Below are positions 1-25,273 of a stretch of 64,000 nt of DNA, one piece after another (positions within the stretch are counted from its first letter, which is position 1; each line of letters begins with the position of its first letter). A program made the position numbers and the translations under genes. Source of the DNA: Microbacteriaceae bacterium (lineage in GTDB: Bacteria; Actinomycetota; Actinomycetes; Actinomycetales; Microbacteriaceae); the NCBI GenBank assembly GCA_024639935.1, contig JAHEFZ010000001.1, positions 1-64,000 on the forward strand, read 5' to 3'. The notes under the pieces are model-generated. The model did no database searches. It saw only the letters and a list, made by a program, of their open reading frames with translations, and had not been told where the DNA came from.

Positions 1-402
1 TACGACAACCGATCCTGTATGGTGCGGATCCCGCCAGAGCGCGGCCAAGGAACCCGTCTCGAGGTTCGCGTCGGCGACGGAGCCGCGAACCCGTACCTCG
101 TCATTGCCGGTGTCCTCGCAGGGGCCTTGGATGGAATCAAACGCTCGCTCGACTGCCCCGACGATGCGGTCGGCATGGCATATGACAACGAATCGGCCCC
201 CGAGCTACCCGCAACACTGGGGGTCGCTCTCGACGCACTCGAGTCCAACGCGCACATGCACGATCAGTTGTCACAAGAACTCGTCGAGGTCTTCCTCGTC
301 ATGAAACGAGACGAAATCGCCCGCTACGAAGCGGCCGTCGACGACCCGACTACGCGTGACGTCACGCAATGGGAGATCGACGAGTACTTTGCCGACTATT
401 GA
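1..402 (+). CDS. Glutamine synthetase family protein, C-terminal part (5' end outside window)
   Basis: The reading frame is open from base 1, so only the last 133 residues are present. The segment beginning YDNRSCMVRIP, followed by RLEVRVGDGAANPYL, matches the C-terminal catalytic region of glutamine synthetases, where the Arg of the NRS motif and the E/R pair of RLEVR contact glutamate and ATP. The tail TQWEIDEYFADY is typical of the non-GlnA1 actinobacterial GS-like enzymes (gamma-glutamyl-polyamine or -amide synthetase branch), so the true substrate may not be ammonia. The next gene is convergent, with 61 bases between them that hold nothing recognisable. Confidence 0.85.
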   Translation, partial: YDNRSCMVRIPPERGQGTRLEVRVGDGAANPYLVIAGVLAGALDGIKRSLDCPDDAVGMAYDNESAPELPATLGVALDALESNAHMHDQLSQELVEVFLVMKRDEIARYEAAVDDPTTRDVTQWEIDEYFADY

Positions 403-463
403 CCATGGTGCGCCGCGATGTTCCTCGCCTAAGCCATGACTCCAGTCAAACGATTCGAGACAT

Positions 464-1567
464 TTATTGGGCCGAGTTATTCAGTGCGGCACCTAGACGT
501 TCAGCCATCGCAACATGGTGGAGTCGATCTACCCCGTCGACGATTTGGTGCAACACCCCGAACCCCACACCGAGAGTATGAAACAGATAGTGCAGAACCG
601 GTTTGAGGTCGCTGGGGACGTCCGCGATCGAAAGAGCGTCGTGCAGGGAAGTTCGAGCCTCTGCCATCGATTCATACGCAATGGTGGCGAGTCGCTGGCT
701 TTCTGGAGCCGCCAAATACGTCTCTAGTCGCAGATTCCGCCACGTGGATCGCTCCGACAGGAGTCCCGCGATGATGAATTTCCCGAAATTGCGTGCGGTG
801 AATCCTCGTTCCTGCCACACCGCTGCGTTTTGGTTCACGATATGTCGTTGAGATTCACCGAAAGCTGCGAGGAGCAGGTCGTCAACCGAATTAAAATGAG
901 GATAAATTGCGCCCGTTGTGATCCTTATTTGACGGCCAATTCGAGACATCGAAGCATTTTTGTATCCGGACGACGCGATTACTGCGATGGCCGCTTCGAG
1001 GAGAACATTTTCAGTTCTGGGAGACGTCAGTACGATGGGTGGCGACGTATCAACGAGGTCCGATGTAGTGGGTTTCCCGCTGTCAATCATCGAATAAATC
1101 ACCGGATCAATTTGGCCAATAACGTGAACACCCGGATCCACCGAGTGAACCAACAACGTGCCTAAACGGTTTGCGACCAACCACGATGAACATGTCAGAC
1201 TCTTCGCTTGCGAAATTTGGGCCCACCAATTTTTTACAGTGGGCGCCACGACTTCGTTTATTTCGGGCTTGCGTCGAGCAACACAAAGAATTTGGGCGAG
1301 CGATCGCGAATGAGCGTCCGCGATAAATTGTGGAGAAAGCAAACTATCGAGCCACGATTGACCTCGCTGAAGCCACACTTCCGCGAGCAATCCCTCGACA
1401 TTCCCGAAGCGCGAGTAGAAAGTCGGCCGTGAAATTTTTGCTGCGGTACAGAATCCGCTCACCGATATTGCATCGATCGATGTCTGGGCTACAGCATCCA
1501 GGGCCGTCGAAACCCAGTCTTTCGGGCTGGAATCTGGGATGTCGGTGAGCGTGGTGGTAATCGTCAT
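464..1567 (-). CDS. Tandem-TetR-domain regulator, first of a paralogous pair
   Basis: A 367-residue protein made of two TetR-like modules in tandem. The first has a clear recognition helix (ISRPTFYSRFGNVEGLLAEVW, about residues 44-64) and the second begins near residue 185 with a helix-turn-helix ending in TTGAIYPHFNSVDDLL. Ordinary TetR proteins are about 200 residues with one HTH, so this is a duplicated-fusion architecture. It is clearly paralogous to the regulator at 4416-5543 over both halves. Its ATG overlaps the stop of the upstream gene by four bases, so it is the last gene of the peptidase/exported-protein operon. Inference: it controls this cassette together with its paralogue. Effector unknown. 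Confidence 0.85.
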   Translation of the reverse strand: MTITTTLTDIPDSSPKDWVSTALDAVAQTSIDAISVSGFCTAAKISRPTFYSRFGNVEGLLAEVWLQRGQSWLDSLLSPQFIADAHSRSLAQILCVARRKPEINEVVAPTVKNWWAQISQAKSLTCSSWLVANRLGTLLVHSVDPGVHVIGQIDPVIYSMIDSGKPTTSDLVDTSPPIVLTSPRTENVLLEAAIAVIASSGYKNASMSRIGRQIRITTGAIYPHFNSVDDLLLAAFGESQRHIVNQNAAVWQERGFTARNFGKFIIAGLLSERSTWRNLRLETYLAAPESQRLATIAYESMAEARTSLHDALSIADVPSDLKPVLHYLFHTLGVGFGVLHQIVDGVDRLHHVAMAERLGAALNNSAQ

Positions 1568-2397
1568 TGACCGATGAGGCCCGCAAGAACGCCGATAAAA
1601 GGAATTACAAACAAGACCCGACCAATGATGTCCTCGCGTTTTACCGTCGCTTGACCTTGGCCTGTATAAACCAATGAACTTCCCTCGGCCACTGCGACCA
1701 CACCACCCAACACGTAATTCGAGGAGTCCATGAATAGGACGCTCGATTCTGGCTCAAGGTCGACTGTGGGTCCGACGACCGCGATAGTCGTGTCAGCAGC
1801 GCCCAACGTGTTTGTCAGTCCAGAATCGGGGTGTACAAATCGAACAAGGTTCGCCGCGGAAAGGCCCACGATAATTGCGGCGATTACTGCGATAGAACTG
1901 AGTGTCCAGATTAATCGTCTTAACATTTGTGCTCTCCTTTGTTGTTGTAGAAATTCGATGTCGCCGACACTCGCCATCGGATAATCAATCGAATCGAGGG
2001 TTCGAACGTCTTTTTGCGGGTTGCCAGGATTATTGCTCCCCACTGGCGAAGGTTCCTCGTTCAGAGACCTGATGGATGTAGTTTCTTCCACGGTGCGTCC
2101 AGCGCCAAACAACATTCGCACCGCGGAATCACCCGGGGCCTCGGTACCTGACCACGCCGCTACCTCGACGATGACGCCTGGTTCGATTCCTCTGACGACG
2201 AGACGCTCGCCTCGCGCAAGTTCGACAACAATTTCAGCATTATCGGCGCCGGCACCACGTTCGGGGCTTGGGGAAACGCTTTTCGCGATTTGGTCAAGAA
2301 AATACGCGCGAAAACGTCGGTTTTGCCGCGTGCTTGGCGTCGTTGCACCAACCAATTCGCTGATGGCTTCGATTTGTCGATCGTCGGCGCCAGGCAT
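1564..2397 (-). CDS. Membrane protein resembling an inactive signal peptidase
   Basis: 277 residues. A roughly 160-residue cytoplasmic part with no motif I recognise is followed by a transmembrane helix (about 164-186), an external beta-rich segment and a hydrophobic C-terminus. The end, KREDIIGRVLFVIPFIG (253-269), reads like the conserved C-terminal box of S26 signal peptidases and matches the position of DDVVGVVIGWVPWAG in the SipW-type enzyme two genes upstream. No SxSM serine box or catalytic His/Lys is visible, so I infer a degenerate, non-catalytic relative, perhaps a chaperone or partner subunit. Its start overlaps the end of the previous gene by one base and its stop overlaps the next start, indicating translational coupling. 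Confidence 0.7.
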   Translation of the reverse strand: MPGADDRQIEAISELVGATTPSTRQNRRFRAYFLDQIAKSVSPSPERGAGADNAEIVVELARGERLVVRGIEPGVIVEVAAWSGTEAPGDSAVRMLFGAGRTVEETTSIRSLNEEPSPVGSNNPGNPQKDVRTLDSIDYPMASVGDIEFLQQQRRAQMLRRLIWTLSSIAVIAAIIVGLSAANLVRFVHPDSGLTNTLGAADTTIAVVGPTVDLEPESSVLFMDSSNYVLGGVVAVAEGSSLVYTGQGQATVKREDIIGRVLFVIPFIGVLAGLIGQ

Positions 2398-2981
2398 TAT
2401 TCGGCAATCTCGAAGGCTAATTTCGACAGGCTCGCACTGTCAACGTCGCCAATATTGAGGGTCTTGTAATCCAGGGTGAATTCCGGGCTCGAAGGGACAG
2501 TGACAACGGCACTCGTTGCCTCGAGGGTGTAATCGCCCTCGTTTCCCGAAAACAAATAGAGCCGTAACCCGAGTCCACGGCACGCTTCACTCACATCAGA
2601 AAACCGAATCGTATCGAGGGCAAAGACGGCAGTGCGCCGTTCGATTCGAGAGGCCAGCGAGACTCGGACGTTCGTGTCGCAAGCACCCAGACCGATTACT
2701 GCTTCGTTCCGATTGAGAATAAAGCCGTCCGCGCCGGGCGCACCATCGGCACCGGGCCGCCCTTCTGCTCCGGCCGGACCAACCCCGCCCACTGTCGACA
2801 CGGGACTGCGGATCCCCAGCGCGGCCAAAATGTTACCTTGAACATCGATACCCATTCCCCGTGCGAAATCGGTAAACAACAGATACGCCACAATCAACGC
2901 AAGAACAATGGTGGCGATTCGGCGACGCTGTCGGTTGTCACCGTCGACATAGATTGGTTGCCGGTTACCATAAAGAGCCAT
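2397..2981 (-). CDS. Membrane-anchored protein with short collagen-like stalk and two-Cys beta domain
   Basis: 194 residues. After a basic N-terminus (RQRRR, 17-21) a single transmembrane helix spans about 22-39. Residues 65-85 form seven Gly-X-Y triplets, a minimal collagen-like stalk. The remaining 105 residues contain Cys101 (ACD) and Cys134 (EACRG) and end in KLAFEIAE. This segment aligns by eye with the C-terminal domain of the TasA-like protein at 3717-4280 (ACD, DTI, then TCEG, ending RIAIEITD). I infer a membrane-tethered version of the same beta-sandwich, possibly the cell-surface anchor or initiator of a fibre. The gene is coupled on both sides (TGATG junction with the peptidase gene). 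Confidence 0.75.
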   Translation of the reverse strand: MALYGNRQPIYVDGDNRQRRRIATIVLALIVAYLLFTDFARGMGIDVQGNILAALGIRSPVSTVGGVGPAGAEGRPGADGAPGADGFILNRNEAVIGLGACDTNVRVSLASRIERRTAVFALDTIRFSDVSEACRGLGLRLYLFSGNEGDYTLEATSAVVTVPSSPEFTLDYKTLNIGDVDSASLSKLAFEIAE

Positions 2982-3697
2982 CAGGTCGCTTTTCTTGTTC
3001 GAATTCGGTCACGCAGTTCTGGCCCGGCAACATAGGCTGCAAAGATAACTGCCACAACAAGAATCATGATATTCGGTTGCAATAGATTGCCGGCCCACGG
3101 AACCCAGCCGATGACGACCCCGACAACATCATCTTTCAAGACCGGCGACAGTTCGGGTTCGTCGTTGGCGTCGCCTTTGGTTTGCCAACCACCTGCGGAG
3201 GTGCCCCCGATGATTCGGTGGCTGAAGTCGGCAATCTTTTCCGTTCGGTCGATGTTGTAATAGTGGAAAATCACGATGTCATCGATGCGCGGCGGGACGA
3301 TCGAGGGGTTAAGCGCAACCACGACATCCCCCTTGTTAAAAGTTCCGGACATTGAATCACTCAATACAACTCGCATCTGGATCACACCAAAAAAGGTGAG
3401 GCATGCGATGCCGAGCGACAGAATCACGATTATCGCTTGGGCGATTCCCTTTGCCCACGCCTCAAACCGAGCCCGTCGCCGTGCTCGAAACCGCCGCATC
3501 AGTTCAGAGGTGAAAGGCGGTTTATCGACCAGATACAAGCCTGCGGGTGAATCGACACGATACGCCTTGGGTGCACGCGACGGATCGGTTTGAACGATCA
3601 CATACATCGTGGTCCCACGACTATAACCGGGAGGGTCGAACCGTTCTACTGAACTGATTGCGACCGCTCCCGGCAATAGCGTCGATGAGTGTGTCAT
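2981..3697 (-). CDS. sipW-like: SipW-type (ER-like) signal peptidase I
   Basis: 238 residues. A cytoplasmic N-terminal extension of about 80 residues precedes a transmembrane helix (about 84-106). The catalytic Ser115 lies in LSDSMSG, and the second catalytic residue is His160 in SHRIIGG rather than the Lys of ordinary bacterial SPase I; this Ser/His form defines the archaeal/ER-like SipW class. KGDAND (174-179) and the DDVVGVVIGWVPWAG box complete the S26B pattern, followed by a C-terminal membrane helix (about 208-225). SipW enzymes mature TasA-like fibre subunits and their genes sit beside them; here the substrate-like gene is 19 bases upstream on the same strand. The N-terminal extension is longer than in Bacillus SipW. 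Confidence 0.9.
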   Translation of the reverse strand: MTHSSTLLPGAVAISSVERFDPPGYSRGTTMYVIVQTDPSRAPKAYRVDSPAGLYLVDKPPFTSELMRRFRARRRARFEAWAKGIAQAIIVILSLGIACLTFFGVIQMRVVLSDSMSGTFNKGDVVVALNPSIVPPRIDDIVIFHYYNIDRTEKIADFSHRIIGGTSAGGWQTKGDANDEPELSPVLKDDVVGVVIGWVPWAGNLLQPNIMILVVAVIFAAYVAGPELRDRIRTRKAT

Positions 3698-3716
3698 TCA
3701 CGACACCGAAATGGTG

Positions 3717-4280
3717 TTAATCGGTGATTTCAATGGCGATGCGGGATGCGTTGGCGGCAATATTTGTCGGTCCAGTTCCCGAGGGATCGCCGGTGGCAGA
3801 GTACGTCGCAGTGGCGCCCGTCCAACCTGTGCCCACTGGTTCTGCCGCATCCAACGCAGTACCGGCTACCCCAAACACGAGTGTGTGGTCCGAATCGCCG
3901 GTAACTGCTTCAACGGTTGCAACGATGTGGAAAGCGACCTCGCCCAAATGAAAAATGGTCACATCAATTGTCTTGCCCTCACACGTGTCAGCGACTCCCT
4001 CTAGGGTAATTGTGTCAGTTGTGAACGCGGGTGTGTCAGCTGTGGCGTCGAAAAACGCGCCAAGGGAGGCAGTTATACCATTCGGGTCGCACGCGGCGAT
4101 GGTTGTTGTTCCCTGTGTATACGAGATCGGGTTGGTGCTGTTGATCGAAACGTTAGCAGCGAACACCGAGCTGATTCCCGCAAGGCCAAGCACCGCGATG
4201 ATGGCAACGAATCCGCCGCGCTTCTTCTTTTTTGATTCGGACGAGCCGCTGAACGCGGCGTCCAATGGCTTCTGCGCCAT
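3717..4280 (-). CDS. TasA/camelysin-like exported protein, probable SipW-type substrate
   Basis: 187 residues. An N-terminal segment with KKKKR (17-21) is followed by a hydrophobic stretch (23-41) ending SSVFA, then the mature part ANVSINS. The signal begins unusually late and resembles alternate (SipW-dependent) signal peptides. The mature domain has Cys64 (ACD) and Cys100 (DTCEG), a candidate disulfide, and ends in ASRIAIEITD. No cell-wall sorting motif is seen. A strong ribosome site (AAGGAG, 7 bases before ATG) and a 19-bp palindrome upstream make it the first gene of the five-gene operon down to base 464. Family knowledge: TasA-like proteins form extracellular fibres; that role here is inferred. 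Confidence 0.8.
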   Translation of the reverse strand: MAQKPLDAAFSGSSESKKKKRGGFVAIIAVLGLAGISSVFAANVSINSTNPISYTQGTTTIAACDPNGITASLGAFFDATADTPAFTTDTITLEGVADTCEGKTIDVTIFHLGEVAFHIVATVEAVTGDSDHTLVFGVAGTALDAAEPVGTGWTGATATYSATGDPSGTGPTNIAANASRIAIEITD

Positions 4281-4311
4281 GAATGACTCCTTCGATTTGT
4301 GATGTCCATTT

Positions 4312-4330
4312 CATCTAACAATGTTAGATG
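4312..4330. promoter_or_regulatory. Palindromic operator of the surface-protein operon
   Basis: CATCTAACAATGTTAGATG is a perfect 9-bp inverted repeat around one central base, the size expected for a TetR-type operator. It lies 31-50 bases upstream of the TasA-like start and overlaps the candidate -10 region of a leftward promoter whose possible -35 (TTGACT) is at 4341-4346. A near-identical copy occurs at 5587-5605, and a lone half-site GTTAGAT is at 4368-4374. Confidence 0.75.
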
Positions 4331-4415
4331 TAAAAATGATAGTCAAGTCTTTCAGAAATGCAACTTCGTTAGATACGGTCTTATGACGCCGGTAAGGCGA
4401 AAAACGGGGCCAACA

Positions 4416-5543
4416 TCACGACTTACGCCACAGCGTTCGCTGGATCGCTTCCTTCAACAGTTCCCTGATGATTCCTTCGTGTGCCAACGATCGCACGTCG
4501 ACCCCGACCGCGGCGAGAGCGGTGAATCCGAACAGCGTCGTATGGACCACGGTTGCCACCTGCCTTGACAGCTTGCCCACAAATCCGAGCGACGTAGTTT
4601 TCCTGTCGAGAGTCGACACGAGTTCGTCCATGCTGGTCCGGACAATTCGCGCCAAGATTGGATCCTGCACTGCGGCCAACATTACTTCCGCGCGGAACCA
4701 GCGCCACGCCCGTCGAGAATCTCCGACGCTGCCCACGATGAATCGCGCGAACCCGTCGGGCGACAGACGAAGTGTTGACCAAAGGGCAACGTTCTGAGCG
4801 GCTGCTGAACGTTGTGCGGCGCTGAATGCCACGCCAACCAATTCGGACATATTGTCGATTCGCGGTTGCAGGTATCCCGATGTGACACGTAACAGACGCC
4901 CGAGTCGCAGAATGGACAATCCGGACACGCCACTCGCGCTGACTATCGAGATTACGCCGTCGATCAACTTTCGCTCCACCGTACCTTCGAGGTCGAGTTC
5001 GATTTCCGGTAGGTCGGGTATTGCGCTTATCGTCGTGTCAATTCGTGTCGAATCGACAGAGCCGATGAAGTCATCCAACACGAGCGCCTCGACCGCCAAT
5101 GGCCACACGCGAACCGTCCCAAGAATTCCAATGCGATTGGCCAGTCTCCATAAGCAAACCGTCAGACGACGCGTATCCCCCAACCGCTGCCTCACGACTC
5201 GATCGACGGTGCTCGTCACTACCTCGGCGATCTGAGAGTTTCGGTGAGCGAGCAACATCACCTCCACGAGTCCTTGTGAGTCGGTCGAGAGCGGATCGAA
5301 TTCGACATCAGCCGATATCAGGCGTTCAAGCCAGATCTCACCTCGCTCGAGCCACAATTCGGCGAGCAATCCCTCCATATCGCCGAAATGCGAATAGAAA
5401 GTAGGTCGAGACACCTTCGATTTAGAGACAACGTCGCCGACCGTCACGGCAAATATCCCGCGCTCGTGAATCAGCCGAGAGGCGCAATCAATCAAGCGTT
5501 CACGAGTCATCCGCGAGCGTTCGGTTGAGGATTCAGGCGCCAT
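4416..5543 (-). CDS. Tandem-TetR-domain regulator, second of a paralogous pair
   Basis: 375 residues from ATG at 5543. The first module carries a canonical TetR HTH (SKVSRPTFYSHFGDMEGLL) and the second a divergent one (RLLRVTSGYLQPRIDNMSELV), giving the same double architecture as the protein at 464-1567. I prefer ATG 5543 over the in-frame TTG at 5579 because a promoter reads TTGGCA (5574-5579), 18 bases, TACACT (5550-5555), then six bases to this ATG, i.e. a leaderless start. The palindromic operator copy at 5587-5605 lies just upstream, shared with the divergent exported-protein genes. Inference: autoregulated repressor of both arms of the cassette. Confidence 0.85.
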   Translation of the reverse strand: MAPESSTERSRMTRERLIDCASRLIHERGIFAVTVGDVVSKSKVSRPTFYSHFGDMEGLLAELWLERGEIWLERLISADVEFDPLSTDSQGLVEVMLLAHRNSQIAEVVTSTVDRVVRQRLGDTRRLTVCLWRLANRIGILGTVRVWPLAVEALVLDDFIGSVDSTRIDTTISAIPDLPEIELDLEGTVERKLIDGVISIVSASGVSGLSILRLGRLLRVTSGYLQPRIDNMSELVGVAFSAAQRSAAAQNVALWSTLRLSPDGFARFIVGSVGDSRRAWRWFRAEVMLAAVQDPILARIVRTSMDELVSTLDRKTTSLGFVGKLSRQVATVVHTTLFGFTALAAVGVDVRSLAHEGIIRELLKEAIQRTLWRKS

Positions 5544-5549
5544 TTTTAC

Positions 5550-5579
5550 AGTGTAAGGTTTGGGGATTCCATTTGCCAA
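5550..5579 (-). promoter_or_regulatory. Promoter of the second tandem-TetR gene
   Basis: On the minus strand TTGGCA (5574-5579) and TACACT (5550-5555) are 18 bases apart, and the -10 ends six bases before ATG 5543. TTACAGTGTAA, an 11-bp palindrome overlapping the -10, could be a second autoregulatory site. Confidence 0.6.
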
Positions 5580-5586
5580 AGGTGAG

Positions 5587-5605
5587 CATCGAACAATGTT
5601 AGATA
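5587..5605. promoter_or_regulatory. Second copy of the cassette operator
   Basis: CATCGAACAATGTTAGATA matches the 4312-4330 palindrome at 17 of 19 positions. It lies between the divergent tandem-TetR gene and the exported-protein gene at 5615, in the spacer of the rightward promoter and overlapping its -10 TACAAT (5604-5609). Confidence 0.7.
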
Positions 5606-5614
5606 CAATCGCAT

Positions 5615-6166
5615 GTGATGATCAGTGACCGACTCGAGATGACCGTGCCCCGTCGACTCCGTGGACAGCGGTTTGTCCGTTCGCTCGCAGGTATTGCCGT
5701 TGTCCTCGGCAGTGCCCTTTCATCCGTGCCGTCCATCGCCGTCGATTCGAACGGGGACAATGTTGACGATGCCCTTGTCGCCTCGTTCGCGGCGGCGGGG
5801 GTCCAATCGTTCCCCGAAAGTGACGCTGGGTCGACGGCAACAGTGTCGGCCATCAGCTTCAGCACATCGGGGTCACCCTCGTATTCCAACAGTTCGCTCA
5901 CCAACGGGTCAAACATCCCCGCTGTTCGAATTTCCGACGGCACGACGGTCAACATCGGAACCGGCACCGGCACCGTGCTTCTCGGGGACGCGTTGGTCTG
6001 GGGAGGCGCGTCACTCGTGGACTCAGGTAGTCGCTGGATTCGAGTGCACCGGACCGCCGACACGTCAGGCGCTGCAGCCTGCTCCGACACCCAAGCCACC
6101 CGGATTGTAGAGTTGCGAGCCGTCACGGTTTCGCCGACCGACAGCGTCACTGTAGGTATCGGATGA
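5615..6166 (+). CDS. Exported protein with a calcium-loop-like N-terminus
   Basis: 183 residues from GTG 5615 (ATG 5618 and ATG 5639 are alternatives; a TACAAT -10 at 5604-5609 favours a leaderless 5615 or 5618 start). A basic stretch (RRLRGQR) and hydrophobic core (about 22-43) form a signal peptide with probable cleavage after SIA. The mature start DSNGDNVDDAL resembles the acidic calcium loop of thrombospondin-3/dockerin-type repeats. The remainder is Ser/Thr/Gly-rich and beta-like with one Cys near 156. I do not recognise the family. Its stop overlaps the start of the next gene (ATGA), so the two are coexpressed, and it is divergent from the TetR gene with the shared operator between them. 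Confidence 0.7.
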   Translation: MMISDRLEMTVPRRLRGQRFVRSLAGIAVVLGSALSSVPSIAVDSNGDNVDDALVASFAAAGVQSFPESDAGSTATVSAISFSTSGSPSYSNSSLTNGSNIPAVRISDGTTVNIGTGTGTVLLGDALVWGGASLVDSGSRWIRVHRTADTSGAAACSDTQATRIVELRAVTVSPTDSVTVGIG

Positions 6167-6729
6167 TCGATCGAAAATCCCCGCCCTCTGCCAGGCATCC
6201 ACTCTTGGCCGATCGACCTCCATTCGCACCTCGAACACGATTGATTGTGTTGGGGTCAGTGCTTACGGCGCTCGCACTCATTGGCGGAGTTTTTGCGTGG
6301 CCCATGATCGCCTCGACGGTCAGTTTGACCCTAGGGAGTGTTGGTCGAATCGATTGTGCCGCCGGAACGGAAATCGTCTTTGAACACGGCATCGACGCCT
6401 CGGGAAGCACCTCCATTTCGTCGATTCGAGTTACCGGAGTCAATACGAATTGTGCTAATTCATTCGTCGCGCTGGCGTTGTACAACAACAGCGGAACACT
6501 AGTCGACGAAATTGTGTGGCCGGTGTCAGTCTTCAGCGGCGACACCTCCGTCACGCTCGTTGCCGATGGTGCGACGGTCTCGTCCGCGAATAACTCGAAC
6601 GGACCTGTTTCGATCATTTACCCGCTAAGCCAGACCGACCCAGAAGGATTCGTGGACAATCTGTCGGTAGAGTCCATTGCACGAGCCGAAATCATCACGC
6701 TGCCGACGACTCGAGCAGCCCGTGAGTAA
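6163..6729 (+). CDS. Second TasA-like two-Cys exported or membrane-anchored protein
   Basis: 188 residues. A 26-residue cytoplasmic lead is followed by one hydrophobic segment (about 27-48) ending in GGVFAWPMIASTVSL, then a beta-rich domain with Cys65 (IDCAAG) and Cys97 (NTNCANS). The block SSIRVTGVNTNCANSFVALA aligns by eye with DTIRFSDVSEACRGLGLRLY of the collagen-stalk protein, suggesting the same domain. The late hydrophobic segment is like the alternate signal peptides cut by SipW enzymes, so it may be a second substrate or a membrane-held subunit. No sorting motif is present. Translationally coupled to the upstream gene. Confidence 0.7.
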   Translation: MIDRKSPPSARHPLLADRPPFAPRTRLIVLGSVLTALALIGGVFAWPMIASTVSLTLGSVGRIDCAAGTEIVFEHGIDASGSTSISSIRVTGVNTNCANSFVALALYNNSGTLVDEIVWPVSVFSGDTSVTLVADGATVSSANNSNGPVSIIYPLSQTDPEGFVDNLSVESIARAEIITLPTTRAARE

Positions 6730-6746
6730 TCGGGGGATGTACGACC

Positions 6747-6752
6747 TAAACT
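6747..6752 (+). promoter_or_regulatory. -10 box, leaderless start of FAD oxidoreductase gene
   Basis: TAAACT ends six bases before ATG 6759 and no ribosome-binding sequence intervenes. Confidence 0.5.
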
Positions 6753-6758
6753 GACCCA

Positions 6759-8333
6759 ATGGAAAGTCCTGATTTCGACATCGTCATCATCGGCGGTGGA
6801 CACAACGGTCTCGTAGCGGCTGCGTACCTCGCCAAAGCCGGAAAATCAGTCGTTGTGCTCGAGCAACACGACGTTCTTGGCGGCGCAGCGGTGTCAACGA
6901 AGGCGTTCGAGGGTGTCGATGCCAAACTTTCTCGATATTCCTATCTTGTTAGCCTGCTTCCGACGCAAATCATCAACGACCTTGGACTTGACGTCAAGAT
7001 TGCCCCTCGTCGCTTTGGTTCCTTCACTCCCGCACGCGGCGGCGAAGTCGGATTGCTCATCGACGAATCCGACGCGGTTGCAACCAAGGACTCTTTCGAA
7101 TCGGTCGGTGCGGCCGGCGACTTCGAGGCATGGCAAAAGTTCTACAAAAAAACAGAAACGGTTGCCACCCGCCTGTTCCCCTCCCTGCTCGAACCGCTAT
7201 CCACCGAATCGGACGTCAAAGAATCGTTGGGGTCAGATTTGTGGACCGAATTCTTCGATCAACCAATTGGCCGAACAATCGAAAACACATTTGAGTCCGA
7301 TCTTGTGCGGGGAATCGTCATGACGGATGCCCTTATCGGGACTTTCGCCCCACTTCACGACGAAGCGCTAGACGCCAACAAGTGTTTCCTTTATCACGTG
7401 ATCGGAAACGGGACCGGTGAATGGAACATCCCCATTGGAGGAATGGGGGCGGTGACTCAGTCGATGGCAACTCGCGCCCACGCGTTTGGCGCCGAGCTGA
7501 GGTCTGGTTGCAAAGTTCTGACCATCGACACTCCGCCGACCACAACCGAAGCATCGCGTCACACGGTGACTTATGACCACGATGGGCGAACACGGTCAGT
7601 TTCGGCACGGTACGTCCTTGCCAACGTTGCTCGGCCGGTTCTCGAGTCGCTGCGTGGTCGGTCGCCTGTTCACACCATCGAAGGCGCTCAAGTGAAGGTC
7701 AACATGATGTTGACGCGGTTGCCCAAACTGAAAACGCACACGGACCCGGTGGCGGCGTTCGGCGGGACGCTTCATATCAACGAAGGTTTCGAACAATTGC
7801 AGGTGGCCTTCGAACAGGCGAGTCGAGGCGAAATCCCTCAACCACTGCCGTGCGAGGTCTATTGCCATTCCATCACTGATTCAACAATCCTCGGACCAGA
7901 CCTTCGCGAGTTGGGTGCTCAAACCCTCACCGTCTTTGCCCTCCAGACTCCTCACTCCCTGTTGCGCGACAAAAACGGCACCGAAATGCGCAAGGCACTT
8001 CAGGATGCTGTTATCGAATCAATCAATTCGATTTTGTCCGAAGATATTCGCGACCTGCTCGTGGTCGACTCCAACGGCAATCCCTGTATCGAAACGAAAA
8101 CAACTCTCGACCTCGAGCAGGCTTTGGGATTGCCCGGCGGAAACATTTTCCATGGGCCACTCAGTTGGCCGTTCGTCGCAGACAACGCACCACGATCGAC
8201 ACCGGCAGAACGCTGGGGTGTCGACTCGGGGGAACCCCGCATCTTTTATTGTGGGTCAACTGCGCGGCGCGGCGGGGCAGTCAGCGGAATCGGTGGTCAC
8301 AATGCCGCCATGGCTGTTCTCGAATCTGACTAG
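6759..8333 (+). CDS. FAD-dependent oxidoreductase, phytoene-desaturase/PYROXD2-like
   Basis: 524 residues. The N-terminus DIVIIGGGHNGLVAAAYLAKAG is a Rossmann FAD-binding GxGxxG motif, followed by VVVLEQHDVLGGAAV, and a C-terminal FAD-contact region (FYCGSTARRGGAVSGIGGHNAA) as in amine-oxidase/phytoene-desaturase-type enzymes. Length and the motif order fit the PYROXD2-like NAD(P)/FAD oxidoreductases common in actinobacteria. No carotenoid genes flank it, so a role in carotenogenesis is not supported by context and the substrate is unknown. A -10 box six bases upstream suggests a leaderless mRNA. Confidence 0.8.
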   Translation: MESPDFDIVIIGGGHNGLVAAAYLAKAGKSVVVLEQHDVLGGAAVSTKAFEGVDAKLSRYSYLVSLLPTQIINDLGLDVKIAPRRFGSFTPARGGEVGLLIDESDAVATKDSFESVGAAGDFEAWQKFYKKTETVATRLFPSLLEPLSTESDVKESLGSDLWTEFFDQPIGRTIENTFESDLVRGIVMTDALIGTFAPLHDEALDANKCFLYHVIGNGTGEWNIPIGGMGAVTQSMATRAHAFGAELRSGCKVLTIDTPPTTTEASRHTVTYDHDGRTRSVSARYVLANVARPVLESLRGRSPVHTIEGAQVKVNMMLTRLPKLKTHTDPVAAFGGTLHINEGFEQLQVAFEQASRGEIPQPLPCEVYCHSITDSTILGPDLRELGAQTLTVFALQTPHSLLRDKNGTEMRKALQDAVIESINSILSEDIRDLLVVDSNGNPCIETKTTLDLEQALGLPGGNIFHGPLSWPFVADNAPRSTPAERWGVDSGEPRIFYCGSTARRGGAVSGIGGHNAAMAVLESD

Positions 8334-8358
8334 CGCGAATCCTCAGAGGCCCCACACA

Positions 8359-9171
8359 TTAGATGGACGGCGTTGAACGGTCAGCGATGAGCTCGCCGCC
8401 ATTGAATGTCACACCGAGTTCGCGGTAGTAGCCGCCGAGAACCCTTTCCACCGGCAGGATCGACTTCAGTTCGTCCCACTGCGAGTCGTGCAGTTCGAGT
8501 TCGGCATCGCCGACCCACGGGTCACCCAGTTCGGCGTCAACGCCTCCCATGGCGATGAGTTGATCCAGCGAGTTGCCGAGACCCGGGGTGATGGACGGCA
8601 CCCAGCGGCTGTGGAGCATCTTGTGGCCGTTGACGAATCCGTTCGTGTCGCCCTTTTCCCGCAGCGTGACGACGGCGGACGCAAGTCGGTGGTCGTAGGC
8701 GGCAACGCTTGCGCCGAGTTTGGCGCCGGCCTCCAACTTGGGTGTGGCCTTGCCGTAATTGAAGACCCGTGTGACGGCGATGTTGCCCAGCTTTTTGGGG
8801 TAGCCCTGGAACCAACCACGACCAATTGCGAAGTCCTTGGTGACCCAGATGGCAACGCAACGGCTGTAGGTCACTCCTTCGTACTTACAGCGGACGACGA
8901 CGAACGCTTCGAGATATTGCGAGCGAACCGGGTCGAGTAGCTCTGCCCCACCGGTGCTGCACGACTGCCAGTCGGCCCAAATCATTGCCACGGCGCCGGG
9001 GTGTTCGTCGGCAAGGTCGAGCTCGGGGGGCAGAATTGCGCGGACGTTCGCGGGATCCGTCAGATACTCGACGGTGAGCAGCGTGCCGGAGTAAAACCAC
9101 GGCATCTCGGGGACGAGTGCGCTCTTGCCGGTAGGGGTCAGTGGGGGTAAAAATCCGTGCAAATCGGTCAT
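8359..9171 (-). CDS. Acetoacetate decarboxylase family protein
   Basis: 270 residues from ATG 9171, chosen because AAGGTGG lies just upstream; a GTG at 9180 would add three residues. FQGYPKKLGNIAV (about 138-150) contains the Lys-Lys pair of acetoacetate decarboxylases, one of which forms the Schiff base, and the N-terminal PELDLADEHPGAVAMIWADW and CKYEGVTYSRCVAIWV blocks fit the family. Substrate cannot be told from sequence; many family members are aldolase-dehydratases. It is divergent from an APC amino acid permease across a 180-base region with a repeated inverted motif, suggesting shared control. Confidence 0.8.
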   Translation of the reverse strand: MTDLHGFLPPLTPTGKSALVPEMPWFYSGTLLTVEYLTDPANVRAILPPELDLADEHPGAVAMIWADWQSCSTGGAELLDPVRSQYLEAFVVVRCKYEGVTYSRCVAIWVTKDFAIGRGWFQGYPKKLGNIAVTRVFNYGKATPKLEAGAKLGASVAAYDHRLASAVVTLREKGDTNGFVNGHKMLHSRWVPSITPGLGNSLDQLIAMGGVDAELGDPWVGDAELELHDSQWDELKSILPVERVLGGYYRELGVTFNGGELIADRSTPSI

Positions 9172-13897: not shown

Positions 13898-13980
13898 GGC
13901 CCACCCCCCCGAGTTCAAAAATACCGTTCGCTGTGGATAATTTCCGACACGAGTTCGTGTGGAGTGGTGAGTTATCTCCC

Positions 13981-16617
13981 ATGACACATCCACCTATTCG
14001 TCGCTTCCTTGTTGCAACCGGCGAAATTCTTTTGATCACCGCCATATCGCTCAGCATGTCGTTGTTGCCAGCGCCATCCGCAAGCGCAACGGTTGCGTCC
14101 CCCGGCACGCTGTCGACTACCGTTGCACCTGCAGGAATTCTCATCAACTCGCCGTGGGTGGTTGACACTTCAGGAACGGAATGGTCCTATGGCACAACGA
14201 GTGCATCAATGGGAACACTTATCTCGAGAAATCGAACGACCGGTGTCTTCACCTCGAGAGCCGTCAACGCCGGAGACGAAGGGTCGATTGCTGGTCTTTA
14301 TTCACCGGTTACCAACGTCGCTGTCTTCAGCACCCGCAGAACGGGTTCGGGAAACCGACTCACCACATTCGATTTGGGGACAGGGACTCGAATCTCGACC
14401 CGAACGCTCGCAACGGATGAAACACTCATTCGCGCGTTAGCGTTCAACTCGAGCGGCGACTCCTACATCATCGGCACCAACCAAAACCCCGCAAAGGTGA
14501 TGAAGTTCGGGGTTACCAGCGGGAATTTGGAATTCAGTTCCACCTTCGCATCGGGGCTCAAGGAAATCACCGCGTTCATCCCCAACGGCACCGAGTTGCT
14601 GGCCGCGGTCAACACGACTCCGATCAAACTTGTCCCGGTGACACGGAACCGGCTGGTCGTTGGTACAGCGGTGGCTCTTCCCGCGGGTACGCCGACCTTG
14701 TTGGACCCGGTAGTCGTGGGCGATACCGTGTATTTGGGCACCGATGCAACCCCTGGACGAATCACGGCGATTGATATTCCAACTCAAACCGTGATCGGAT
14801 CGGCCACTTTAGACTCAGGAGAAGTTGGGGTACGAAACCTCGTGGTCGACGACGCAACCGGAACCTTGTACGCGACGACCGACACCTCAGCGGGGCCACG
14901 AATTGCCTCGTTTCGACTCACGGATTTACGCCGATTAGGAACCGTGCAACTCAGTGCCGGACCTTCGGTAACGTCGTTGTTCTTCTCCGGGAGATCCCTC
15001 GCCGCCGCCTACGCGGGAAACCGAGGCGTCGAGACCTTCACCGTCGCACCCGAACCCAACGCGCCCGTCATCACGAGAATCCAGGAATCGGACTCGTCAC
15101 TGGTCGTCTCATGGAACTCGGGAGGTTCGGCTGAACCAATTGTGGAGTTCACCGCCACCGCAAACGGCGGGGGACACTCGGCCTCGTGTTCCTCGAACCA
15201 AACCGGTTGCACAATTCAGGGCTTGAGCAACGGAACGACCTATACCGTCTCGGTCGTTGCGCGCTCTGCCGCCGGAATCAGCCCGGCAACAACAGCCTCC
15301 GGAATGCCGCGGACTGTTCCGGATTCTCCGACGACCCCACACGTGACACGAGGCAACACCACCGTGACGGTCGCGTGGTCCCCGCGCGGCGACGGCGGTG
15401 TGCCGATCACGGGTTACCGTGCGCTGGCGACACCGAGTGGGCAGATGTGCGAGTCGATAACACCAACCTGCACCATCTCAGGTCTGCCGAACGGGATTCC
15501 ACAAACAATTCAAGTTGTCGCGCGCAATTCGGTGGGAACATCTCAGTCCTCCGAACCGAGCGCGCCGGTTACTCCCGCGACGACACCGTCAACGCCGCGC
15601 GTCGAGTCGCCACGCCGATTGAACAGCGGCACTGAGGTTGTCTGGCAACCTCCGATTGATGACGGTGGCGATCCGGTTGTTTCCTATCTCGTCCGAGTAA
15701 CGCGGGGGTCGGCCGTAGTCACAGAATCAAGCACGAGCGAAACATCCATCACGCTCGACGGTCTGACCAACGGCGTGAGATACGGGATCGCGGTCTCGGC
15801 CACGAACTCGGTTGGCTTCGGTGGACTATCCGATGTCGCCGATGTCACCCCGGCAACGGTTCCTGATGCGCCGACATCACTGATTGCCTTGGCGACCGAC
15901 GGAGGGACGGGAATTGAATGGTCGGCGCCCCCGAACGACGGCGGCGACCCCATCACCGGCTATCGCGTTCGCGTCTGGCGGGATCTCGTCGTGGTTTCTG
16001 AATTTGAAACGCCCAACGCGAATGCTTCCGTGCAGGGTTTGACCAACGGCATCGAATACCGTGTTACCGTTTCGGCGGTCAATACCGTTGGCGACAGTGT
16101 CGCGTCAGAATCCGCATTTGTGACGCCGCATTCGCCGCCGGTTACAGACCTACCAACGGTTGACCCACCGACAGTTGATCCACCGGTCGTAGCCCCACCA
16201 CCGGTTGTGATTCCACCCGTTGTGGAACCACCGACAGTTGGGCCGCCCGTAGTAGACCCACCCTTCGAAGATTCTTCTGAATCCGTCAGTCCACCGAGCG
16301 CGCCGATGGATATCGCTGTGATTAGTGCAACCCGAAAAATCATCACTCTCGGCTGGCAAATTGGCGATTCCGGTGGATCACCTGTACTCGATTTCATTGT
16401 GCACACGAGTAAATATCAAAACAAGGGGTTCCGCGTGTGGCCGGATTCCACTTCGCCCGCTCCCCGAGTTGAAATTCGGAAACCGCGTCGTGGCGGAGTT
16501 TACGTCCGCGTGATTGCCGTGACCGCTCGCGGTGAATCCGCCCCGTCCGAGACTACGTTGATCGCGCGCGTGAAAAAATTAATGAATTCCCAGGACCGCG
16601 GCCGTGCGCGTCAGTGA
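13981..16617 (+). CDS. Large secreted propeller and fibronectin type III protein
   Basis: 878 residues from ATG 13981 (the frame is open further upstream but the signal peptide fits this start). Signal peptide residues 1-38 end SASATVA. Residues about 40-350 are repetitive with YVTN/beta-propeller-like blades (VFSTRRTGSGNRLTTFDLGTG, VGDTVYLGTDATPGRITAID). Four Fn3 domains follow at about 358-450, 450-540, 540-630 and 630-715 (each with SYLVRV/GYRVRV and LTNGVRY-type turns), then a Pro/Val-rich linker encoded by 16138-16265 and a fifth Fn3. No LPXTG, wall-binding or membrane anchor is visible at the end, so it is probably released or held non-covalently. Its 3' end overlaps mqo by 39 bases. 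Confidence 0.82.
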   Translation: MTHPPIRRFLVATGEILLITAISLSMSLLPAPSASATVASPGTLSTTVAPAGILINSPWVVDTSGTEWSYGTTSASMGTLISRNRTTGVFTSRAVNAGDEGSIAGLYSPVTNVAVFSTRRTGSGNRLTTFDLGTGTRISTRTLATDETLIRALAFNSSGDSYIIGTNQNPAKVMKFGVTSGNLEFSSTFASGLKEITAFIPNGTELLAAVNTTPIKLVPVTRNRLVVGTAVALPAGTPTLLDPVVVGDTVYLGTDATPGRITAIDIPTQTVIGSATLDSGEVGVRNLVVDDATGTLYATTDTSAGPRIASFRLTDLRRLGTVQLSAGPSVTSLFFSGRSLAAAYAGNRGVETFTVAPEPNAPVITRIQESDSSLVVSWNSGGSAEPIVEFTATANGGGHSASCSSNQTGCTIQGLSNGTTYTVSVVARSAAGISPATTASGMPRTVPDSPTTPHVTRGNTTVTVAWSPRGDGGVPITGYRALATPSGQMCESITPTCTISGLPNGIPQTIQVVARNSVGTSQSSEPSAPVTPATTPSTPRVESPRRLNSGTEVVWQPPIDDGGDPVVSYLVRVTRGSAVVTESSTSETSITLDGLTNGVRYGIAVSATNSVGFGGLSDVADVTPATVPDAPTSLIALATDGGTGIEWSAPPNDGGDPITGYRVRVWRDLVVVSEFETPNANASVQGLTNGIEYRVTVSAVNTVGDSVASESAFVTPHSPPVTDLPTVDPPTVDPPVVAPPPVVIPPVVEPPTVGPPVVDPPFEDSSESVSPPSAPMDIAVISATRKIITLGWQIGDSGGSPVLDFIVHTSKYQNKGFRVWPDSTSPAPRVEIRKPRRGGVYVRVIAVTARGESAPSETTLIARVKKLMNSQDRGRARQ
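16138..16265 (+). repeat. Coding repeat: proline/valine-rich linker
   Basis: Imperfect repeats of codons for VDPPT/VxPPV units inside the Fn3 protein, forming a stiff extended linker between the fourth and fifth Fn3 domains. Confidence 0.8.
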
Positions 16618-24661: not shown

Positions 24662-25273
24662 CTAAGAGAAAAGTTTCCGAAGCGAACCCATCACCTCGGT
24701 CAACGCCTCTCCTATGTCAGCATCGGGACCAACTGCTTTGAGGTACTTGGTGATTTCCGTCCAGACTTGAGCCGCGAGCGCTCCCACGAATCCCGCGAGC
24801 GCCGCCCCACCGGCTTGCCCCTCGAGGCGTCGTGCCACCGCCTGTTCCATTTCGCGCGCCCAATGGTCGCGGGAGTATCGAACCGCTCCGTCACTCAGTC
24901 GCGCCGCGTGAACCACGGGACCCGGTTTGAATCGGTCTTCAAGGTCAATTTGCTTTTCGTGACTGTGTTCAAGGCAGTATTCGAGGGAGTGGAACAGTGG
25001 CTCGTCACGGGGACGATCCATCAGTAGTGTGGCGAAAAACTCCATGTACTCATCAAGAGTCGGGTATAACAATGCCTCCTTGGTCGAAAAGTAGTTGAAC
25101 AGAGTTCGCCGCGAAATTCCAACCGCCATTGCAACATCCGCCATGGTGGTCGAATCAAAACCGTCACGCTCGAATAGTGACCAGGCGATACGGATTATCT
25201 CGTCTGGTGTTGATTTCGGTTTGCGCCCCAGCACACTGTGTGCGCCATGGCCCGCAATCGTCTCGCTATTCAT
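24662..25273 (-). CDS. TetR-family regulator of the adjacent MMPL transporter
   Basis: 203 residues. The HTH ADVAMAVGISRRTLFNYFSTKEALL lies at about 45-69, with a normal TetR-length ligand domain after it. ATG 25273 has TAGACT six bases upstream. It is divergent from the MMPL gene, whose promoter spacer contains a 12-bp palindrome, so it most likely represses that exporter and perhaps itself. Confidence 0.88.
   Translation of the reverse strand: MNSETIAGHGAHSVLGRKPKSTPDEIIRIAWSLFERDGFDSTTMADVAMAVGISRRTLFNYFSTKEALLYPTLDEYMEFFATLLMDRPRDEPLFHSLEYCLEHSHEKQIDLEDRFKPGPVVHAARLSDGAVRYSRDHWAREMEQAVARRLEGQAGGAALAGFVGALAAQVWTEITKYLKAVGPDADIGEALTEVMGSLRKLFS

Follow-up and report, generated by a model that had tools for sequence, protein, structure and literature searches.

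Paired palindromic sites around a double-TetR gene: a candidate TetR-type switch for secreted-protein genes in a Microbacteriaceae genome

SinR, which is not a TetR protein, represses the sipW-tasA matrix operon of Bacillus. Among TetR regulators, the operator tetO (TCTATCATTGATAGA) appears inside an oligonucleotide of PMC6328932, and Arg28 and Gln38 of the tetracycline TetR are described as contacting the G at +2 and the A at +3, with the R28A change abolishing tetO binding (PMC7102968). The operators of KstR are palindromes that overlap the -10 element and mark its regulon, according to PMC1995591. Mce3R of Mycobacterium tuberculosis, which its authors present as the first solved double TetR, places the two unlike helix-turn-helix (HTH) units of one chain on a non-palindromic 25-bp site; the first unit by itself is reported not to bind, and loops between sites are proposed (PMC11667970).

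The window analysed here, a 64,000-nucleotide stretch of a Microbacteriaceae genome, carries two related sites, op1 and op2, in front of two sets of exported-protein genes. We propose that a local repressor of the TetR family uses both as operators. The double-TetR protein TetR1 is the most likely candidate and would also regulate its own gene. We put the probability of this reading at about two in three.

The operator pair and the genes behind it

Op1 (CATCTAACAATGTTAGATG, 4312-4330) is a perfect odd-centred 19-bp palindrome, with all nine arm positions matching, and lies before a tasA-like gene. Op2 (CATCGAACAATGTTAGATA, 5587-5605), in which seven of nine arm positions match, lies 1,275 bp away between the divergent tetR1 and rightward exported genes; neither site is assigned a strand. 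The first-pass annotation had reported that the two agree at 17 of 19 positions, and they do so at these coordinates. A search of the window with op1, allowing up to three mismatches, returned op1 and op2 only, each read on both strands, against a chance expectation of 0.01 from 100 dinucleotide shuffles. The annotation had also proposed a genome-wide search for the palindrome and held that many random copies would speak against a shared operator. Across the 1,314,875 bases of the assembly (1.31 Mb, 95.8% complete), the combined pattern was found in two places only at up to three mismatches, op1 and op2, which are thus its sole copies in this genome, and the reversed-pattern control gave no match. 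With the 15-bp core at up to two mismatches, op1 and op2 were again the only copies and the reversed control gave four, so that copy number is unremarkable at this stringency and only location is informative. Perfect palindromes of the op1 type are not rare, two being present in the window with op1 counted, and the signal is therefore the sequence common to op1 and op2 rather than palindromy.

Op1 heads an apparent five-gene operon, all on the minus strand, with short or overlapping junctions. It begins with the tasA-like exported protein (3717-4280, 187 aa), which has relatives in sister modules, and continues with a sipW-like or archaeal-type signal peptidase I (2981-3697, 238 aa; TIGR02228 at 46.2 bits for a cut-off of 51.85, NF046067 SipW at 37.6 bits for a cut-off of 190). 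A collagen-like protein follows (2397-2981, 194 aa; Collagen at 15.8 bits, below cut-off, and a C-terminal TasA-like domain at E 1.4e-12), then a module membrane protein (1564-2397, 277 aa; matched by blastp to proteins of the modules in the relatives G046 and G117 at E 1e-20 and 3e-18), and finally TetR2. Op2 heads two exported genes on the plus strand, encoding proteins of 183 aa (5615-6166, signal peptide judged by eye) and 188 aa (6163-6729, with a marginal TasA-like score of E 0.0021), and abuts the candidate tetR1 promoter. The tasA-like protein matched no Pfam and no NCBIfam family, and no TasA or camelysin model; the products probably form surface fibres, a reading drawn from their likeness to SipW and TasA systems and not from family membership.

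The annotation had further placed each site over or against a predicted -10 element. The geometry stands: the candidate -10 of the rightward genes (TACAAT, 5604-5609, plus strand) overlaps the last two bases of op2, and TATCAT, in the best candidate promoter of the tasA-like operon (4336-4363, minus strand; TTGCAT at 4363-4358, a 16-bp spacer, TATCAT at 4341-4336), is 5 bp from op1. The outward promoters themselves fared less well, being no better than shuffles: the best score was equalled or beaten in 46 of 200 shuffles for the tasA-like region, whose promoter is weak, and in 71 of 200 for the rightward one, in which TACAAT is the third-best candidate; a consensus promoter scan listed neither promoter. 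The candidate tetR1 promoter (5550-5579, minus strand; TTGGCA, 18 bp, TACACT) is the sole one of the three in that scan, which found four sites against 4.1 expected, and 8 of 200 shuffles score as high. The TTGCAT-16-TATCAT pair would place op1 over the predicted start site, with a leader of about 49 nt and AAGGAG before the ATG at 4280, and the transcript predicted from TACAAT would be nearly leaderless at the GTG at 5615. Both sites fit the pattern of a short palindrome near a promoter and a tetR-type gene, the promoter part of which rests on these weak predictions.

A half-site that might modulate the pair had also been suggested near 4368, and the sequence itself is there. Within the candidate interval 4361-4379 (plus strand), GTTAGATAC at 4368-4376 repeats the right half of op2, and it occurs twice in the 64-kb window, at 4368 and at 5598, the latter copy being the op2 right half itself. 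Its centre is about 49 bp from that of op1. The half-site is probably related to the operators; its modulating role receives modest support, an exact 8-base half-site having arisen in 79 cases when the 85 bp at 4331-4415 were shuffled 20,000 times.

A recurrent TetR-type operator

The 15-bp core, TCTAACANTGTTAGA, is tetO except at +/-3, that is, with one base changed per half. A scan of 84,980 species genomes for the exact 17-bp sequence ATCTAACANTGTTAGAT yielded 95 loci with 96 sites. Thirty of the 96, as counted with an HTH profile grown from TetR1's own first HTH and with 14 of them belonging to one Bacillales group (Paenibacillus, Cohnella and Bacillus), have a correctly oriented TetR HTH no more than 200 bp downstream, compared to 1.2 expected from random positions in the same loci. 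No TetR HTH stands in such a position at the remaining 66, many of which are probably chance occurrences. In the Bacillales TetR group, the exact 17-mer stands about 120 bp before the HTH at 14 loci.

Within the family of the window's genome, the core is present in 3 of 398 genomes, this one and two others, and each foreign copy closely precedes a gene for a single-domain TetR. The 32 operator-adjacent HTHs (the 30 above and the two family copies) fall into three groups of 24, 6 and 2 at 50% identity. Judged by sequence and placement, the 30 of 96 sites beside a TetR HTH, together with both foreign family copies beside tetR, indicate that the motif is a recurrent TetR-type operator.

Sister modules

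Genes for the tasA-like protein, the peptidase and the collagen-like protein occur together in all five relatives read (G231, G307, G117, G046 and G094), and the fourth module gene is matched in G117 and G046 and recognized by eye in G094. With this genome included, matches to the TasA profile were found in 10 of 249 genomes and the module peptidase in 3 of the 15 genomes of the genus. Of the other TasA-profile matches, in G054, G459, G486 and G110, the first three were read and have no module in their open reading frame lists, with a peptidase-like frame in G486 only. The collagen-like proteins of the window and of five further loci end in a TasA-like domain, which gives two kinds of TasA-like protein per module. 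Elsewhere in the window, an 894-aa exported protein (13933-16617, plus strand) has repeats that resemble fibronectin type III by eye.

The cassette at 403-6758 looks like an insertion when judged against G307, of the same genus. There, about 90 bp separate the end of glnA from the start of a crtO-like gene, compared to 6,356 bp in this genome. The adjacency of glnA and the crtO-like gene is found in one of the three relatives with that stretch, other genes preceding the crtO-like gene in G184 and G231.

The promoters of the sister modules carry a palindrome of another kind. An exact 18-mer, CTGAATCGAATTCAGTTC, is common to the tasA-like promoter of G231 and that of the second tasA-like gene of G046. 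The two genomes belong to different genera, and the 18-mer is reversed in one relative to the other; weaker second copies lie nearby. The tasA-like promoter of G307 has a related palindrome (three mismatches) at the same position. The centres of these palindromes precede the tasA-like start by about 31 nt in G231 and G307 and by 38 nt in G046 (range 31-39), and that of op1 does so by 41 nt. At up to three mismatches, the 18-mer also matches unrelated places, four in this genome and one each in G117, G046 (contig C8), G307 (C82) and G012; given these scattered matches at two to three mismatches, only its two exact copies are strong. The tasA-like promoters of G117 lack it at that same threshold.

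Regulators of the sister modules appear to be of another type as well. Three of the five sister modules have a gene for a single-domain TetR nearby: it is at the module in G117 and G231, and in G046 it precedes the module by about 5 kb. The tetR start of G117 has a related palindrome in front of it, with about a dozen bases between the two, and none was found at the tetR genes of G046 and G231. In G307 and G094, whose module contigs are short, the best relatives of the sister TetR are on other contigs, and this genome has two relatives of it. A TetR subfamily with an NHHFG-type HTH (for example, L158:9004-9789, minus strand, and L040:4413-5138, plus strand) has up to six members per genome in this group of genomes, and two members are in this one.

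The slot before the tasA-like genes is occupied by one palindrome in the relatives and by another here. That relatives carry a different palindrome at about the same place further supports the shared-operator reading of op1 and op2, and the comparison suggests that regulator and operator may have been replaced together.

Candidate regulators and known systems

TetR1 (4416-5543, minus strand, 375 aa) is the favoured binder of op1 and op2. Its gene sits between the two sites, with its start beside op2. The protein has one Pfam TetR_N stretch, at residues 17-63, and a second HTH, detected with a custom profile at E 0.025, whose recognition helix is degenerate. Its paralogue TetR2 (464-1567, minus strand, 367 aa), encoded by the last gene of the op1 operon, has two TetR_N stretches and is 31% identical to TetR1. 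Over the whole genome, TetR_N matched eight times, in seven proteins. The window also has a TetR gene (25067-25198, minus strand, TetR_N 52.4 bits) that is unrelated to the cassette.

Comparison of the HTHs gives a partial agreement. Pro39 in the recognition helix, present in 28 of the 32 operator-adjacent TetRs, is found in only TetR1 and TetR2 among the seven TetR proteins of this genome, and the first HTHs of both combine it with Tyr42, which all 32 share. All 32 have the Arg28 equivalent, which is absent from each of the four HTHs in TetR1 and TetR2; the first HTHs of these two carry Arg38, found in none of the 32. Another TetR of this genome, at C16:167049, has Arg28 and lacks Pro39 and Tyr42. 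The 24 background HTHs were chosen for resemblance to TetR1 and form a biased background. We infer TetR1 as the binder from the position of its gene and this partial helix agreement; it would then need a mode of recognition of its own, without Arg28. Either two chains would share the palindrome through their first HTHs, or one chain would apply a strong first and a weak second HTH. The half GTTAGAT is intact in op1, op2 and the half-site, with the opposite half variable, which would fit the latter option and, with three sites, proves nothing. An AlphaFold model of TetR1 with TetR2 was unusable (pLDDT 40).

A protein search of the 84,980-genome collection with TetR1 gave 56 pattern matches and no confirmed relative. 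Long double-TetR matches among 299 family genomes were limited to this genome and one genus, g13, in which five of six sampled genomes have a double-TetR, three near full length and two cut by contig ends. Among the matches listed for a five-row double-TetR profile run on 347 genomes of the order, with five candidates scored per genome, this genome alone was hit at E 1e-15, and some homologues may have been missed. Three g13 homologues (L004, L005 and L006) are about 30% identical to TetR1 and lie, by eye, beside a proC-like gene; the double-TetR gene at these loci is away from any tasA-like gene. None of the five g13 double-TetR loci has a copy of the op palindrome, and the core is absent within two mismatches from the genomes G012, G094 and G251.

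In the proposed switch, TetR1 at op1 would cover the start of the operon for the tasA-like, sipW-like, collagen-like, membrane and TetR2 proteins and keep it off. At op2, the protein would lie over the -10 region that serves the two exported genes on the right, with the same outcome, and adjoin the tetR1 promoter, allowing autoregulation. A ligand or other signal would free TetR1, and both arms would come on together. One regulator silencing both arms, as the first-pass annotation had it, is the best reading of the locus, as the motif is confined to two promoters, recurs before tetR genes and has a tetR-type gene between its copies.

Against TetR1 stand the missing Arg28, the weak outward promoters, the presence of Arg28 in the protein at C16:167049, the non-palindromic site of Mce3R and the motif-free g13 loci. 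An alternative is that TetR2 is the binder or that both proteins share the operators, TetR2 closing a feedback loop. The sequence SRPTFYS.F common to their first HTHs and the place of the TetR2 gene within the operon behind op1 are in keeping with this, but at position 44 TetR2 carries Arg, compared to Tyr or His in 31 of the 32 operator-adjacent TetRs and Phe in the other one, and its gene is neither between nor beside the operators, making a role for TetR2 in binding unlikely. A more elaborate arrangement, which we consider distinctly unlikely, is that a double-TetR dimer reading through its first HTHs loops op1 to op2 around its own gene and silences both arms, with feedback from TetR2, the pair having replaced the single TetR and operator of the relatives. 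It is quite improbable that the sites serve another regulator, of the TetR family or not, whose gene lies elsewhere in the genome or is missing from the 95.8% complete assembly. Such a regulator would account for a TetR1 that lacks the Arg28 of all 32 operator-adjacent TetRs, and the protein at C16:167049 has that residue; however, no third copy of the motif lies beside another regulator in the assembly, the other five TetRs of this genome lack Pro39, and the one at C16:167049 also lacks the universal Tyr42.

The mode of action and the nature of the sites can be weighed in the same way. Some TetR proteins are activators, and the regulator might activate rather than repress; position argues for repression, with op2 over the candidate -10 and op1 on the candidate start, the usual places for blocking polymerase, and although both promoters are weak predictions, activation appears very unlikely. 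Perfect palindromes as long as op1 number about one or two per window, and op1 lies 86 bp beyond the end of tetR1, as would suit a chance pair or a terminator hairpin behind that gene. A run of T is absent after the sites, however, the sites are AT-rich, and an Rfam search of window positions 1-9000 gave no match, which argues against a terminator. Chance is opposed by the expectation of 0.01 for the common sequence in the window and by the recurrence of the motif upstream of tetR genes, and that the sites are no operator at all is most improbable.

If the TetR1 switch exists as proposed, a single control probably holds a whole surface-fibre kit off until needed, and an unannotated island becomes a testable system of two operators and one regulator that governs secreted-fibre genes in a bacterium with a small genome. 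There would then be a second natural case of a double TetR besides Mce3R, its sites palindromic where those of Mce3R are asymmetric, and in it one could examine how two dissimilar HTHs in each chain recognize a symmetric operator. In the sister modules, the same genes stand behind other operators and other kinds of regulator, which offers a setting for studying how regulator and operator are replaced together. No title on the present operator or island system was among the literature matches listed, which is not proof of its absence from print. A TetR operator pair is ordinary in kind; a double TetR facing palindromic sites and the apparent swap relative to the sister modules are the unusual part.

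The likeness to SinR is one of targets, in that a dedicated repressor silences the sipW/tasA matrix operon there, as is proposed here, whereas the window proteins match no TasA family model. KstR differs in that its described core, TnnAACnnGTTnnA, is even-centred, and the present motif has an odd centre and only two sites. With tetO and TetR, the locus shares the 15-bp odd-centred core, apart from +/-3, and an operator beside a divergent tetR-type gene; it departs from them in having a double TetR without the Arg28 equivalent and in targeting secreted-protein genes rather than an efflux pump. To Mce3R, TetR1 has weak similarity, limited to N-terminal residues 9-93 (phmmer E 0.0047). Both have two TetR units per chain and a gene next to the controlled or putatively controlled genes, and as described, Mce3R is autoregulated and has two sites before the mce3 operon, compared to two sites and a proposed autoregulation here. 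The sites themselves set the systems apart, being asymmetric 25-mers for Mce3R, as far as its description goes, and palindromes here, with op1 a perfect one.
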